A stretch of DNA of 64,000 bases, from assembly GCF_017298635.1 (NCBI RefSeq), contig NZ_CP071182.1, positions 620,001 to 684,000 of the forward strand, read 5' to 3'. Shown piece by piece: positions 8,760 through 63,998 of the stretch; the first letter of the stretch is position 1; each line of letters starts with the position of its first letter. Below the pieces are notes generated by a model, which was not told the origin of the DNA, ran no database searches, and saw nothing but the letters and a program-made list of their open reading frames with translations. This DNA is from Paenalicyclobacillus mengziensis. Lineage in GTDB: Bacteria > Bacillota > Bacilli > Alicyclobacillales > Alicyclobacillaceae. The translations under genes were made by a program, and so were the position numbers.

Positions 8760-9034
8760 GCGACAACACAAAAGTGGCAATGAACAGGAAGAGTACATGT
8801 CTGGTTTGCCTTCAGAGAGAAGTCGTGTAACGCTGTGAGCGACTTTATGCGGTCAACATGGAAGTGCACCTGCTCGCCTCGGAAAGAAAGCATGCGTACG
8901 GGATGTATGCATTTGAGTAAAATCCGACGGGTCGTCCCGTTACAGACAGAGTTCAAGCGAGTGCACAGCTACGGCACTAAGCAGAGTGGAACCACGGTAC
9001 ACAGCCGTCTCTGAGAGAAGAGACGGCTGTTTTT
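8760..9034 (+). promoter_or_regulatory. T-box riboswitch, probably cysteine-specific, upstream of cysS
   Basis: This accounts for most of the 348-base gap between gltX and cysS. Visible parts are the stem I region with an AGAGAG element at 8814-8819, a likely TGC (Cys) specifier at 8865-8867, and the T-box bulge sequence AGAGTGGAACCACGG at 8983-8997. A 12-bp perfect terminator stem (9001-9012 with 9019-9030) and TTTT follow. Uncharged tRNA-Cys should stabilise the antiterminator and allow cysS transcription. The T-box core and terminator are clear; the specifier was placed by eye and agrees with the downstream gene. Confidence 0.88.
9001..9034 (+). terminator. Regulated terminator of the cysS T-box
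   Basis: Perfect 12-bp inverted repeat (acagccgtctct and agagacggctgt) with a 6-base loop and a TTTT tail, immediately after the T-box sequence and before the cysS ribosome site. Confidence 0.9.
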
Positions 9035-15899: not shown

Positions 15900-15920
15900 C
15901 TATCATGATGGAATTACAGG

Positions 15921-16027
15921 ATGGACCGTAGACAGCAGGCCCTTCGGGTTAATGGGAAACCGCCTGCCGAGGTTCGCGACGGATGTTAAAGTCGCGTCTT
16001 CGTGTCTGCGGAGGCGCGACTTTTTTG
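15921..16027 (+). promoter_or_regulatory. Ribosomal protein L10 leader with terminator
   Basis: The stretch from 15931 on carries the L10-leader signature (an AGCAGGCCCTTCGGG hairpin, then AATGGGAAACCGCCTGC) of a kink-turn domain that binds the L10/L12 complex. It is followed by a GC-rich hairpin (gtcgcg at 15991-15996, cgcgac at 16015-16020) and TTTTTT, an intrinsic terminator. Excess L10-L12 should favour termination before rplJ. Confidence 0.85.
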
Positions 16028-16078
16028 ATGTCATGAGCGGATCCACCTGAACAATCATGGCGGGGGGTGTAGGAGACT

Positions 16079-58802: not shown

Positions 58803-58963
58803 AAATCGAGTGCGAAAGACGAACTACTTCTTGAAAGGGGGAATGTCGTAGAGACGGTAGTATTGTGGGGATGAAAGATGGCGACAAGACAAGACTACAA
58901 TTGATTGGCGTGAGAGACGCCCGTGTGACCTGGTGAATCTGATACACCAAAGTTGCATGAAAA

Positions 58964-59110
58964 GCGCCCGGGCTGAGGAGTGACGGAGAGATTTTCCTCA
59001 GTTGACGCGGTGGGGGTTGGCGAACCATTCGGCGGGTGCCCCCCGGTGTGAGGCCGCACCGAACACAGACCCTGAAATCTGATGGGTGACCGGCAGGACA
59101 AAGGGACTGT
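58964..59110 (+). ncRNA. glmS ribozyme (glucosamine-6-phosphate-activated self-cleaving riboswitch)
   Basis: The conserved core is visible: AGCGCC with cleavage expected between A58963 and G58964, a long P2-type hairpin (ctgagga/tcctcag), TTGACG, then GCGAA, GGCGGGTGCCCCCCGGT, ACCGA, TGGGTGAC and the ending GGACAAAGG. High glucosamine-6-phosphate should trigger cleavage and decay of the glmS mRNA. Together with the promoter and a hairpin it explains the 422-base glmM-glmS gap. Confidence 0.93.
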
Positions 59111-59135
59111 AGGCTCTGTAGGGGGATTTGTGCCC

Positions 59136-60986
59136 ATGTGCGGTATTGTCGGTTACATCGGTCCACGCCACGTCAAAGACGTGGTGATAGGCGGTTTGCG
59201 CAAATTGGAGTATCGCGGTTATGACTCAGCGGGGATTGCGACACTCAGTAATGGTCAGATCTCTGTTGTGAAAGCTGTCGGACGGTTGGGAAATCTGGAG
59301 GATAAACTTCTAACAGAAGCTGTCGAAGGGGAACTTGGAATTGGCCACACACGGTGGGCCACCCATGGCAGACCGTCGGATGAGAACGCACACCCGCATC
59401 AGGATTGTAGTGGAAAATTTGCGATTGTGCATAACGGGATCGTCGAAAACTACGTCCAAATTCGCGAGGAATTGCTGGCAAAGGGTCACCGTTTTCAATC
59501 AGAAACGGATACAGAAGTGATTGCTCACCTGATGGAAGAACTGTACAACGGAGACTTTGCCGGAACAGTGCTTGCAGTCACACAGCGCATCCGAGGGGCT
59601 TACGCTCTTGTCGTCATGGCCAAGGATGACCCGGATACCTTGATTGCAGTCCGCAAAGCCAGTCCCCTGATTGTGGGTCTTGGTGAGGGTGAGAATTTTA
59701 TTGCCTCTGACATACCGGCGATTCTCGAGTACACACGTGACGTGTACGTGCTTGACGATGGGGAGATGGCGATTGTTCGCAGGGACGGCATGACCTGTTA
59801 TCCGCTCGACGGGGCTACCACGGTCGCTGAACTGCACCCTGTCGAGAAAGAAGTCTTGCATGTCACTTGGGACGCCGTATCGGCTGAACGTGGCGGTTTC
59901 CAGCACTTTATGCAGAAAGAGATCCACGAACAGCCAAAGGCAATCCGAGATACCTTAACGGGACGCTTGGACGAGGACCTGCAGTCTGTTGCTCTCCCCG
60001 AATTGTCCTGGACAGACGAGTCCTTACAAGCCATTGACCGGATCCACATTGTCGCTTGTGGTACGTCTTGGCATGCCGGGCTGGTTGGAAAAGACGCGAT
60101 TGAGAAGATTGCCAAGATCCCGGTTGAGGTGGACGTCGCTTCCGAGTATCGGTATCGCGATCCGCTGGTCACACCGAACACACTCGTGATTGTCATCACG
60201 CAGTCTGGTGAGACCGCGGATACACTAGCCGCACTTCGAGACAGCAAGCAGAAGGGGCTTCGTGTCCTTGCCATCACGAACGTTGTTGGCAGTTCAGCGG
60301 CTAGAGAAGCCGACGACGTTTTGATTACCTGGGCCGGGCCAGAAATCGCAGTGGCTTCCACAAAGGCTTATACGACGCAACTTGTCACATTGTACTTACT
60401 GGCTGCTTATCTCGGGCAGGCGCGAGGGACACTCAGTTCCGATGCAAAGGCTGAAGTACTGGGGGCATTGGCTGGGCTTCCGACCGTGGCGGAACAAGTC
60501 CTCGACGCTGCCCCGCGGATTGAACGGTTTGCGAAGGATTATCAAGAAGCTCGTGATACCTTTTTCATTGGCCGGGGGCTGGATTATGCGGTCTCTCTTG
60601 AAGGTGCACTCAAGCTCAAGGAAATTTCGTACATTCATGCTGAGGCTTACGCGGCCGGTGAACTGAAACATGGTACGCTGGCACTGATTACAGACGGTGT
60701 ACCGGTGATTGCACTGGCAACACAGACACACCTCTATGAAAAGACACTCAGCAACATCAAGGAAGTGAAGGCTCGCGACGCGTTTGTACTTGGACTCACG
60801 TGGGCTGGAGATGAGGAACTGAAGAAGTCGGTGGATGAGGTCATCTACCTGCCACGGACCTCACCTGTGGTGGCCCCGATTGTTGCCGTCATACCACTTC
60901 AGTTGCTGGCGTACTACGCCGCTGTTGTTCGCGGCAATGACGTCGACAAACCCCGTAACCTCGCAAAGAGCGTCACGGTCGAATGA
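59136..60986 (+). CDS. glmS: Glutamine--fructose-6-phosphate aminotransferase (isomerising)
   Basis: 616 aa. The N-terminal glutaminase domain starts with the nucleophile Cys2 in MCGIVGYIG after Met removal; two SIS sugar-isomerase domains follow (CGTSWHAGLVGK, QSGETADT, FIGRGLDYAVSLEGALKLKE), and the C-terminus ends DKPRNLAKSVTVE. It makes glucosamine-6-phosphate, the first step toward UDP-GlcNAc. ATG 59136 follows GGGGGA and gives the exact family N-terminus; the in-frame ATG 59082 lies inside the ribozyme. GlmM upstream uses its product. Confidence 0.97.
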   Translation: MCGIVGYIGPRHVKDVVIGGLRKLEYRGYDSAGIATLSNGQISVVKAVGRLGNLEDKLLTEAVEGELGIGHTRWATHGRPSDENAHPHQDCSGKFAIVHNGIVENYVQIREELLAKGHRFQSETDTEVIAHLMEELYNGDFAGTVLAVTQRIRGAYALVVMAKDDPDTLIAVRKASPLIVGLGEGENFIASDIPAILEYTRDVYVLDDGEMAIVRRDGMTCYPLDGATTVAELHPVEKEVLHVTWDAVSAERGGFQHFMQKEIHEQPKAIRDTLTGRLDEDLQSVALPELSWTDESLQAIDRIHIVACGTSWHAGLVGKDAIEKIAKIPVEVDVASEYRYRDPLVTPNTLVIVITQSGETADTLAALRDSKQKGLRVLAITNVVGSSAAREADDVLITWAGPEIAVASTKAYTTQLVTLYLLAAYLGQARGTLSSDAKAEVLGALAGLPTVAEQVLDAAPRIERFAKDYQEARDTFFIGRGLDYAVSLEGALKLKEISYIHAEAYAAGELKHGTLALITDGVPVIALATQTHLYEKTLSNIKEVKARDAFVLGLTWAGDEELKKSVDEVIYLPRTSPVVAPIVAVIPLQLLAYYAAVVRGNDVDKPRNLAKSVTVE

Positions 60987-61010
60987 GCCAGGAAGTGCGG
61001 ACAGCCTATT

Positions 61011-61246
61011 ATCTTCGCAAAATGAATTTCTTCTCCAGTAAAATAAGTTCTACTCTGAGTAAAATAAGTTGGTTCCTACAGCACGGGTGGATTCGGGTTA
61101 AAAGCCTGAATTCGCCCGTGTTTTTTAATGCCTGAAAGCGATGGGCGGGGGAATCTCAGAGCCAAAATTTGAAGGGAGAAAGACGCGAAAAAGCCCGATA
61201 TATCAAGGATTCCTCGACCATTCCCGATCAGAAATGAGAAAAAATA
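61011..61246 (+). repeat. Dispersed intergenic element, copy 1
   Basis: It begins about 25 bases after glmS. Three A-rich boxes start at 61017, 61038 and 61059, exactly 21 bases apart (the last two share the 13-mer agtaaaataagtt). A long hairpin (61080-61122) with a T-run follows, then a purine-rich stretch with gggcgggggaa and cgaaaaagcccga that is shared with copy 2. No start-codon-initiated gene of note was found within it. Confidence 0.9.
61080..61127 (+). terminator. Terminator hairpin of element copy 1, probable glmS terminator
   Basis: About 19 consecutive pairs, including several G-U, with the loop taaaa, followed by TTTTTT at 61121-61126. It is the first good terminator after glmS. 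Confidence 0.8.
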
Positions 61247-61294
61247 CACGACAAAATCTGCTCTCCCTGAACCCTTCAAGCCTGCTCTTACCCT

Positions 61295-61320
61295 GTTCTT
61301 CCACGGAAGAACTTCTTTTT
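61295..61320 (+). terminator. Second terminator-like hairpin between element copies 1 and 2
   Basis: gttcttcc (61295-61302) and ggaagaac (61305-61312) form a tight stem, followed by ttcttttt. The surrounding 61247-61520 is purine-rich on the + strand and shows no gene. Confidence 0.6.
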
Positions 61321-61520
61321 ACGCAAAGTCGATGAATCTGGAAAAATCACGGAGAAAAACGGGTGAGGAAAGGCGTGATCTACGGTAGAACGAATTCGAC
61401 GGCAGAAGATGGAAGGATGTGAGGGTGAAGGCGTGAAAAGCCTTGTGGGGCGTGGGATTTGGCGGGGTTGAGGCGGGAGTGAGTGAGGGAAGAACCGATT
61501 TTTGCGGTCACACCTATGGA

Positions 61521-61789
61521 ATCTTCGCAAAACGCGGATCTACTCTCCGCAAAATAAGTTCTACTCTGAGGTAAATAAGTTGTTCCCTACAGCACGGGTG
61601 GATTCGGGTCAAAAGCCTGAATTCGCCCGTCTTTTGTGTTGTTGGGAAAAGGGATTGAGGGTGAAGGGTAAGACGAAAGAACGGGCGGGGGAAAAGACAG
61701 GGAGAAGTTTCAAGGAAACAAGACACGAAAAAGCCCGACAAATCAACGATTCCTGAACACAGCCCGAACAAAAATGAGAGAAGAAAAAG
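61521..61789 (+). repeat. Dispersed intergenic element, copy 2
   Basis: It aligns with copy 1 over its whole length. Boxes begin near 61527, 61549 and 61570 (spacing about 22 and 21). The hairpin is at 61594-61630 with a weaker tail (cttttgtg). An insertion of about 30 bases relative to copy 1 precedes the shared gggcgggggaa (61683) and cgaaaaagcccga (61725). A fragment gttgttgggaaaag from this copy recurs at about 61869-61882, before the GGDEF gene. Confidence 0.88.
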
Positions 61790-61987
61790 AGCGTCTTGGC
61801 TTCAAGAGTCCAATCACAAGCAGGATTTCGCGAGAACAGCAAAGAAATGATTAACGCAGTTACGGGAGTTGTTGGGAAAAGAATCTTATCTTTTGTTTTA
61901 CTCTGAGAGCCGATGATGTAAGGGGCAGGACACACTTCTACCTTGAGACGGCCTATCATCAATGAGGATTTTGTGAGGTGTGAGTCT

Positions 61988-63427
61988 GTGGAAACAAACG
62001 ACCTCAAGTCACTTCAACAAGAGGTAACTTCGCTCAGGGCAGAAGGAAAATACAAAGATACCATCGAGGCTTGCTACAATCTCCTACAACGCGGTATTGA
62101 ATTAAATGACCATAAATCCGTTTTGGTCGCTCATCTGAATAGTGCGGCATCTTACTACTGCATTGGAGATATCGAGGAGGCGTTCCGTTGTATTAGTGCC
62201 TACGATGAGGTTTGTAGAGTACATGGTGACGAGACGGATGACTTACACCGATACAACGTCCTATTTTTGCTTCACGAATACAACAAAGATTTTAGTAAAG
62301 CCAAGTCCACCCTTGAAACAACGATTTATCTTGGCACTAAGTTGCAAAAATATAACATCGTTAGTAACGCATATAGCAATTACAGCCATCTATGCCTCGC
62401 TGAGAATAATTACACAGAGGCTCTGAAAATGGGAAACCTGGGACTTGGTATGGCAAAATTGCATCGTCCGCCCAGTGCGATATTGGAACTCAGGGTGAAA
62501 TTGAATATCGCTCAAGCCTACATAGGACTTCGTGATTTTCATGCCTCAAGGCGGTTAATCGAAGAAATCGAACATGAGTCTGTTTTGGAATCGGATTCCT
62601 ATATAAGAGAACGGGTTCAATTCAACATGTTGAAGGGAAGCTGGCACTCAAACCAAGGATTGCATAGAGAAGGGTTGGAATCGTCAACGCGTGCCAGGGA
62701 TTTGGTTAAAAGTTATGATGATATTTATGTGCTGGAGGAGATCCAAAAAGAACGGTATCGATTATCAGAGCTTCTAGACGACATTCGGATTGGATACTTG
62801 GTTCAGAAGGAATACATATCTGTGCTTGAGGAAGTTCGGCAACGGGAGCTGGAGTTGACTGCTTTAAAGCTTGAAGTGAAACATAGCCTAACAGATTTGG
62901 AGAAGAAGGCAAATTCAGACCATTTGACGGGATTGCCAAATAGACATCACTTAGAATCAACTGCAAACGAATGGCTCAAAAAAGCGGCTGACAAATGCGA
63001 AAACCTGGTTTGTATCGTGATCGATGTGGATAATTTTAAACACATCAATGACAACTACGGGCACCTTGTTGGCGATGAAGTCATTCGGCAGGTAAGTGAG
63101 GCATGTTCAAGAGTATTACGAGGAGACGACATGGTTGGTCGTTACGGCGGGGATGAATTTGTCGCAATTTTAAGAGGAGCTTCTCTCGAGGCGGGCAAGA
63201 GGAAAGCGGAGCAAATGGCAGCCGCATTGCGAGCATTGAATATTCAATATGGCGAGATACAGATACCCATAACAGCAAGTATGGGTGTTTCAGACAATGC
63301 AGACGGTACACTTTTACGTTTCAATGAGTTGTTTCAATTTGCAGATGTAGAACTTTATAGAGCGAAGCAAAATGGAAGAAACCAGGTATCTGTCAGGGGG
63401 TTTGTGGACAAACAGCCACAAATGTAG
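61988..63427 (+). CDS. TPR-containing diguanylate cyclase (GGDEF domain)
   Basis: 479 aa, cytosolic, no membrane helix or signal. Residues 1 to about 285 are helical repeats of TPR type; a coiled coil (about 275-315, EEVRQRELELTALKLEVKHS) leads to a GGDEF domain opening with DHLTGLPNRHH. The active-site GGDEF at 387-391 is intact and an RGDD inhibitory-site motif lies five residues before its Arg-Tyr flank (378-381), so feedback-controlled c-di-GMP synthesis is expected. GTG 61988 follows GAGGTG by seven bases. The coding sequence is visibly more AT-rich than the left part of the window and is flanked by dispersed repeats, suggesting accessory origin. Confidence 0.88.
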   Translation: METNDLKSLQQEVTSLRAEGKYKDTIEACYNLLQRGIELNDHKSVLVAHLNSAASYYCIGDIEEAFRCISAYDEVCRVHGDETDDLHRYNVLFLLHEYNKDFSKAKSTLETTIYLGTKLQKYNIVSNAYSNYSHLCLAENNYTEALKMGNLGLGMAKLHRPPSAILELRVKLNIAQAYIGLRDFHASRRLIEEIEHESVLESDSYIRERVQFNMLKGSWHSNQGLHREGLESSTRARDLVKSYDDIYVLEEIQKERYRLSELLDDIRIGYLVQKEYISVLEEVRQRELELTALKLEVKHSLTDLEKKANSDHLTGLPNRHHLESTANEWLKKAADKCENLVCIVIDVDNFKHINDNYGHLVGDEVIRQVSEACSRVLRGDDMVGRYGGDEFVAILRGASLEAGKRKAEQMAAALRALNIQYGEIQIPITASMGVSDNADGTLLRFNELFQFADVELYRAKQNGRNQVSVRGFVDKQPQM

Positions 63428-63563
63428 CAATTTATATGGTTGCGTCATTTGAATCGTTTAAAATTAGAACCCACATGGGTTTGAGGCTGTCCGAAAGCGT
63501 CATCACAAGATTTGAATGTTTATTCCCTGTTCCCAGTATAACTACGATGTCAGGGGTGATTTG

Positions 63564-63641
63564 ATGAGCGAGTTATACGACGACATCGGTAAGACCTATG
63601 ATTCGACGCGCAAAGTCGATTTAGAGATAGTACATAGCTAA
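63564..63641 (+). pseudogene. Truncated start of a SAM methyltransferase-like gene
   Basis: 25 codons, MSELYDDIGKTYDSTRKVDL then EIVHS and a stop, preceded by GGGGTGAT as ribosome site. The YDxIGKTYDxTRKxD pattern is the typical first segment of small class I methyltransferases, normally about 200-250 residues long. The remainder is absent; the sequence runs into unrelated DNA and element copy 3 about 90 bases later. Function is lost unless this is a chance peptide. Confidence 0.55.
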
Positions 63642-63728
63642 ATTTTCATGATGGACCTGTTGCCGCCTACGAAGTTAAGATATGAAAGCTCTACATCCCT
63701 TACCCCATCACCCCGACTTCTATATATC

Positions 63729-63842
63729 GGAAAAATGGAGTTCTTCGCCAGCAAAATAAGTTCTACCCTGAGTAAAATAAGCTGGTTCCTACAGCGCGGG
63801 TGGGTTCGGGTCAAAAGCCTGAATTCGCCCGTGTTTTTTAGT
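63729..63842 (+). repeat. Dispersed intergenic element, copy 3 (short form)
   Basis: Boxes begin at 63730, 63751 and 63772, exactly 21 bases apart, followed by the hairpin at 63793-63833 and TTTTTT. Two A-to-G changes in the 5' arm relative to copy 1 convert A-U to G-U pairs, so the fold is kept. The downstream purine-rich part differs from copies 1 and 2. Confidence 0.88.
63793..63839 (+). terminator. Terminator hairpin of element copy 3
   Basis: About 18 pairs with several G-U, loop caaaa, tail gtgtttttta. It would end transcription coming from the GGDEF gene side. Confidence 0.7.
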
Positions 63843-63902
63843 GCGAGGGAAAGGGAGAAGCCGGGGTTAAGGGGAGAGGCAGATGGGAAAGAACTTGATT
63901 TT

Positions 63903-63998
63903 TCACTCAAACAGTTCTTTGGCCGACGTGACATGTTCAGCTCTAGCCGCACTTGGAAACGCGTCACGTCCGTCCTCCAGGTCCAATATACTGACTTG
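63903..63998 (-). CDS. Possible C-terminal end of a reverse-strand gene cut by the window edge
   Basis: On the minus strand a frame is open from the right edge for 31 codons and ends with GAG TGA; it reads VSILDLEDGRDAF, then PSAARAEHVTSAKELFE. Composition looks protein-like, but the piece is too short to assign. The gene would extend beyond 64000. No family was recognised. Confidence 0.3.
   Translation of the reverse strand, partial: QVSILDLEDGRDAFPSAARAEHVTSAKELFE

Follow-up and report, generated by a model that had tools for sequence, protein, structure and literature searches.

Repeats behind glmS in Paenalicyclobacillus mengziensis are probable scars of a Tn7 lineage that naturally transposes by replication and forms cointegrates

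The transposon Tn7 inserts some 20 bp past the stop codon of glmS (PMC2918618). In the Escherichia coli genome examined, it begins 25 bp after that stop, and its right end consists of tandem 21–22-bp boxes and, between these and tnsA, a hairpin that folds at −18 kcal/mol. The TnsA protein of Tn7 cuts the 5′ ends of the element, and an uncut strand-transfer intermediate, once replicated, yields a cointegrate (PMC11406308). With a TnsA D90A mutant of the Vibrio cholerae CAST, the entire donor backbone is integrated between duplicated mini-transposons (PMC8188705). Surveys of Tn7-like elements take the presence of tnsA as a sign of cut-and-paste movement, and one of them infers replicative transposition from the absence of tnsA together with a resolvase (PMC8649781). 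By this rule a clade with a non-catalytic tnsA would be misread. The locus described here very probably records such a case, a naturally replicative, cointegrate-forming Tn7 lineage that uses attTn7 and has left its scars behind glmS.

The window, the whole stretch of 64,000 nucleotides that was analysed, contains three copies of a 122-nt repeat, at 61010–61131, 61521–61642 and 63723–63844. A preliminary description of this DNA had recognized a three-copy element with box arrays and a hairpin, and the element is real: the box TAAAATAAGTT, with at most one mismatch, occurs five times in the window against 0.47 expected, and all five lie within the repeat copies. The start of copy 3 moves from the earlier 63729 to 63723. 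The proposed 21-bp period holds for copy 1 (boxes at 61018, 61039 and 61060) and for copy 3 with its degenerate first box; in copy 2 the boxes at 61528, 61550 and 61571 are spaced by 22 and then 21 bp. In each copy the boxes are followed by a stable G+C-rich hairpin and a T run, as in an intrinsic terminator, with folding energies of −31.6, −28.6 and −30.7 kcal/mol and z values of −7.6, −5.6 and −6.6 for copies 1, 2 and 3. No base pair in the hairpin alignment shows changes on both sides, so that support for the hairpin comes from its folding energy and from one-sided compatible changes. The copies match no family in an Rfam scan. Similarity between copies 1 and 2 extends well beyond the hairpin, and copy 1 is accompanied, 290–480 bp downstream, by inverted boxes that had previously been missed.

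The preliminary description knew of no named element with this layout. E. coli Tn7, however, shows boxes of the same spacing, the same kind of hairpin and nearly the same distance from glmS, which identifies the layout as a Tn7 right end, down to the AAAATA-type core of the boxes and the position of the hairpin close inside the terminus. Each copy is a right end of a Tn7-like element at attTn7 behind glmS. What survives of the earlier proposal of a protein- or mRNA-binding terminator element is its array-like boxes, its terminator-like hairpin and its recurrence in relatives; its status as an unnamed gene-end element does not. Copy 1 opens a complete mini-element, M1; of copies 2 and 3, which lie on either side of a GGDEF gene, only decayed remnants are left. 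The features are as follows.

58952–59120: glmS ribozyme (RF00234), directly upstream of glmS
59136–60986, + strand: glmS, from the open reading frame list, start set at MCGIVGY; its 3′ end, DKPRNLAKSVTVE and the stop, is the expected TnsD target (attTn7)
61005–61009, unstranded: CCTAT, 5-bp target-site duplication left of M1, from the sequence and the flank table
61010–61512, + strand: M1, complete gene-less 503-bp Tn7-like mini-element with right end, hairpin, interior and left end
61018–61070, + strand: right-end box array of M1
61080–61122, + strand: terminator-like hairpin of M1, with a T run up to 61127
61304–61325, − strand: left-end box 1 of M1, TGCGTAAAAAGAAGTTCTTCCG, PWM score 12.8
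61384–61406, − strand: left-end box 2 of M1, degenerate, CTGCCGTCGAATTCGTTCTACC, a self-match to the right-end box region
61487–61512, − strand: left-end box 3 and terminus of M1, TGTGACCGCAAAAATCGGTTCTTCCC, PWM score 9.6
61513–61517, unstranded: CCTAT, 5-bp target-site duplication right of M1, from the sequence
61520–61782, + strand: M2, decayed left-hand M copy with right end, hairpin (about 61593–61630) and partial interior
61943–63427, + strand: GGDEF/TPR gene (Pfam PF00990, E 2e-40)
63699–63722, + strand: core/M right-junction remnant, CCCCATCACCCCGACTTCTA, aligned to the distal M copies of relatives
63723–63913, + strand: M3, right-hand M copy with an internal deletion; right end 63723–63850, hairpin 63793–63835, left end about 63853–63913

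M1 starts 23 bp past the glmS stop with its right end proximal, has the terminal letters ACA, and is 84% identical over 475 alignment columns to a 501-bp repeat of the relative G021. Its right end has three boxes in direct orientation and its left end three spaced, inverted ones (one degenerate), with CCTAT on both sides of the unit, all as in a Tn7-like element. M2 has lost its left end; with M1 and one CCTAT discounted, it would start 25 bp from the glmS stop. M3 is preceded by the conserved core junction known from the distal copies of relatives. No matching target duplication was found for the M2–M3 pair, and no tns genes lie near the copies in the window, which are gene-less or decayed. 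The GGDEF/TPR gene between them is probably cargo of the decayed element; a similar GGDEF gene directly follows an M unit in the relative G036 (ORF 461696–463159).

The preliminary description had envisaged either many copies at the 3′ ends of genes or a local duplication unique to this spot. Neither matches what is found. The genome from which the window comes (G000, 5.29 Mb) has only these three copies, while 22 of the 61 genomes searched (this one and relatives from the same genus, family, order and class) contain the element, 21 of them besides its own, and they do so essentially at one site per genome, attTn7 behind glmS. The proximal copy lies 21–28 bp after the glmS stop in most relatives. 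By exact pattern scan the element is present in Alicyclobacillus sacchari, A. tengchongensis, A. fastidiosus, A. montanus, A. ferrooxydans, A. acidiphilus and A. hesperidum, as well as in Ferroacidibacillus organovorans and two metagenome bins. Insertions away from the glmS site occur in G021 and G013. In another genome (G044; L028, near 1458–1546), glmS is followed by the same hairpin with zero boxes, and this is a right end that has decayed or else a terminator captured from the host.

In relatives that carry tnsABCD, the order of the element is duplication, M, a core of 40–85 kb, M, duplication. The 73-kb element of G021 reads GCTAG–M–core–M–GCTAG, and its two Ms are identical over 501 bp. 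Its core carries the genes tnsABCD, with a tyrosine recombinase gene next to tnsA, and also a ParM-type, actin-like gene; the core of G036 has the same gene set, and the recombinase adjoins tnsA in G001 as well. The Pfam assignments in relatives are PF08721/PF08722 (TnsA), PF09299 (TnsB), PF05621, TniB/AAA (TnsC), and PF15978 with PF06527 (TnsD with TniQ), and a full TnsD is encoded between the M copies together with tnsABC. Perfect 5-bp duplications flank the G021 element (GCTAG), the G036 element (CCAAG) and a solo M of Ferroacidibacillus (CAAAC), which joins M1 of the window as a solo copy so flanked; duplications read across contigs are ACATA in G001 and TTTTA in G013. M pairs matched by a duplication are identical, at 501/501, 502/502, 273/273 and 133/133 nt. 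By comparison, Ms average 80.5% identity between genomes, and unmatched Ms within one genome are 85–94% identical. On the simplest interpretation, both members of a matched pair were made at insertion. A. fastidiosus likewise has identical Ms (501/501) located 85 kb apart around tnsA at 494584, with no matching 5-bp duplication.

Several details of these elements deserve mention in their own right. The identical M pairs of A. fastidiosus (L093:4406/L089:2221) and G194 (817262/867297) have unmatched outer 5-mers, as if a neighbouring deletion or rearrangement had followed insertion. The inner flanks of M, facing the core, form an inverted repeat, with ..CTA before M and TAG.. after it, while the outer flanks have no dyad. 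This CTA–M–TAG dyad is conserved in four families, namely the M family, its sister family, G194 and G107 (L057/L060, L062, L103, G194 817262–867297 and G107 3868119–3909163). The conserved sequence CCCTGYTTCTA before the far copies was considered as the left end of the big element, but it is box-less and belongs to the core, where this adjoins the right-hand M. A reading of the far copies as ends of older, pushed-along insertions was superseded by the M–core–M structure once the duplications were read. The G021 element seems to interrupt another Tn7-like element behind glmS, with the tnsA-like gene of the latter on one side and its tnsB-like gene on the other (2064575–2065231 and 1988928–1991159 of G021:C1; tnsB identified by Pfam, tnsA by eye). 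Cargo includes CAP12-TIR and AbiJ defence-type domains in G021 (L057:6717–10753) and brxC-like DNA of the BREX type in G194 (L175:14982–17615).

The large elements of relatives have TnsA through TnsD, as Tn7 does, and their TnsB retains the DDE residues Asp273, Asp361 and Glu396 (aligned with PDB 7PIK). They depart from a cut-and-paste Tn7 in the catalytic residues of TnsA. Aligned with Tn7 TnsA (PDB 1F1Z/1T0F; catalytic Glu63, Asp114 and Lys132), the TnsAs of G021 and G036 keep Glu63 and Lys132 and have Thr in place of Asp114. Every M-family TnsA has Thr at this position, and tnsA is a full open reading frame. Sister-group TnsAs have Thr, Ser or Asn there, several with an additional Gln at Glu63, whereas Asp114 is intact in 20 other TnsAs from Bacilli. 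In a tree built after removal of the catalytic columns, the dead TnsAs form one clan with a support of 0.993, so that the defect looks like one old, retained loss and not like scattered decay.

A prediction was fixed before further regions were fetched: in distant families, elements with a dead TnsA were expected to end in long direct repeats, and elements with an intact one to lack them. Three additional dead-TnsA elements, in G297, G194 and G107, have direct repeats of 499, 608 and 463 bp, respectively, which are 100% identical, span tnsB, and are separated by 63, 49 and 41 kb. The repeats are flanked by the 5-bp duplications CATCC in G297 and ACACA in G107; the G194 pair has no matching duplication. 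No direct repeat spans tnsB in the intact-TnsA elements of G199, G102, G231, G158 and G207 or in the two of G017, the G102 and G207 regions ending at contig boundaries. Loss of Asp114 and terminal repeats are thus correlated, with repeats in 6/6 dead elements (G021, G036, A. fastidiosus, G297, G194 and G107) versus 0/7 intact ones; the Fisher p of 0.0006 is a guide only, because the first three dead cases prompted the idea and the lineages are related. The prediction held in these three distant Bacilli and in every intact control. Of two further dead-TnsA loci, G069, whose tnsB has a stop, lacks a terminal repeat within the part that was read (60 of 92 kb), and the 13-kb contig of G087 is too short to show one. 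No tyrosine recombinase was found in the elements of G297, G194 and G107, and its candidacy as a general resolvase was dropped.

These features suggest a route by which the structures would arise. The transposing unit would be M itself, a gene-less mini-transposon of 0.3–0.6 kb made of right end, terminator and left end, and the larger, plausibly plasmid-like circle bearing it would encode tnsABCD as well. The boxes are probably TnsB-type sites, and the hairpin just inside the end probably terminates glmS transcription and shields the element. Since TnsA is catalytically dead, nicking of M by TnsB would be limited to the 3′ ends; with TnsC and TnsD directing M to glmS, strand transfer and replication would follow. 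The product would be a cointegrate, in which the whole circle lies in the chromosome between two identical, directly repeated Ms and a 5-bp duplication, and the identical Ms with matching duplications in relatives have this structure. Later recombination between the Ms would delete the core and leave a solo M. The predicted junction of the circle is CCTGYTTCTA–M–TAGTACAGG. Repeated rounds would stack scars behind glmS, each new insertion landing between glmS and the older M. M1 is probably the younger scar in the window, because M2 sits 25 bp from the stop when M1 and CCTAT are discounted, and M2–GGDEF–M3 would be an older integrated copy that has decayed and lost its tns genes.

Composite transposons, in which two IS copies surround cargo, are common, and M could conceivably be a MITE-like unit moved in trans by cut-and-paste Tns proteins, with M–core–M a composite that by chance moves as one unit. 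The solo Ms with perfect duplications in the window and in Ferroacidibacillus would suit such an origin, as would the element families with intact TnsA in the same order. It is nonetheless very unlikely, given that the flanks of a composite would diverge whereas the Ms that share a duplication are identical and only unmatched ones differ. Moreover, the cognate TnsA is catalytically dead, M–core–M is common to several dead families and absent from the intact ones examined, and the conservation of the CTA–M–TAG inner junctions across genomes means that the M pair is not a chance flanking. The recombinase gene adjoining tnsA in three genomes brings up a different route, a Campbell-type event in which a one-M circle joins a resident solo M by homologous or tyrosine-recombinase crossover. 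Arrays of solo Ms provide targets for it, and excision, too, is likely to proceed by M × M crossover. Integration through diverged Ms, however, would give unlike copies, and unmatched Ms of the same genome differ by 6–15%; the G021 duplication lies inside another Tn7-like operon, not an M array; and the recombinase was not found in three dead families. This route to integration is very unlikely. Least credible, and in our judgement extremely improbable, are immobile sequences, either the native glmS terminator duplicated locally in tandem or a gene-end regulatory platform that binds DNA or mRNA, even though the hairpin is a strong terminator candidate, stands alone and box-less after glmS in G044, and has own-genome copies only at the glmS locus. 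Against it stand the target duplications, the terminal sequences and the inverted left-end boxes, as well as tns genes between the copies of relatives and the off-glmS insertions in G021 and G013.

The replicative, cointegrate-forming lineage that we favour resembles E. coli Tn7 in its place some 25 bp behind glmS, its orientation, the trio of spaced inverted boxes at the opposite end, its 5-bp duplication and, in relatives, TnsABCD. It differs in the missing catalytic Asp114, in tns genes positioned outside M and close to the far end, and in the long identical direct repeats at both ends. With type V-K CAST and Tn5053/Tn402 it appears to share strand transfer by TnsB with the 5′ ends left uncut, cointegrates as products and, in the M family, a site-specific recombinase. 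Unlike these systems, it keeps a full-length TnsA, dead as it is, homes to glmS by TnsD, has an integrated form that persists as cointegrate and mobile ends that enclose zero genes, and lacks a recognized recombinase in three dead families. The closest experimental parallel is V. cholerae CAST TnsA D90A, in which loss of the catalytic Asp also places the donor backbone between duplicated mini-transposons; that is a laboratory mutant, whereas the M-family loss is natural, old and clade-wide. MITEs and solo LTRs are comparable as short gene-less leftovers with target duplications, whose longer parent elements have direct repeats at their termini, but the ends here are Tn7-type box arrays, and the repeats would come from replicative strand transfer, with no reverse transcription.

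Taken one step further, and with rather less assurance, the evidence leans toward a monophyletic, Bacilli-wide Tn7-like branch that has abandoned cut-and-paste, has kept a dead TnsA as a partner and whose replicative, gene-less mini-element integrates an entire circular replicon site-specifically. If so, this would be a site-specific integrating plasmid or island with Tn7 as its integrase and M as its attachment site, bearing LTR-like identical repeats when integrated and leaving solo-M scars on excision. Such a branch would offer natural stable cointegrates and a possible non-catalytic role for TnsA, and it would account for the odd repeat stacks behind glmS in Alicyclobacillaceae. Since each terminus holds a complete right end and left end, element ends are easily misplaced; identical terminal direct repeats around tnsB may serve as a marker for finding more. 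The open-access literature searched has no description of natural dead-TnsA Tn7 elements, and the novelty of the lineage is therefore provisional.

Searches of PLSDB with the right end, M and stretches of two cores returned short or single-gene matches and no free plasmid form; a staphylococcal plasmid with tnsABCDE was matched via TnsB. No replication gene was recognized in the cores, some of which have the ParM-type actin-like gene. Elsewhere in the genome of the window, at about 1111000–1268400 of G000:C1 (L100–L108), two related large Tn7-like elements lie in tandem. Their TnsA has neither Glu63 nor Asp114 and belongs to the sister clade of the M family. They carry 310-bp box–hairpin–box units at 1168534, 1168842 and 1252873, which, being only about 90% identical, are older repeats. 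The window also has a T-box leader (8771–9015) and an L10 leader (15908–16035).
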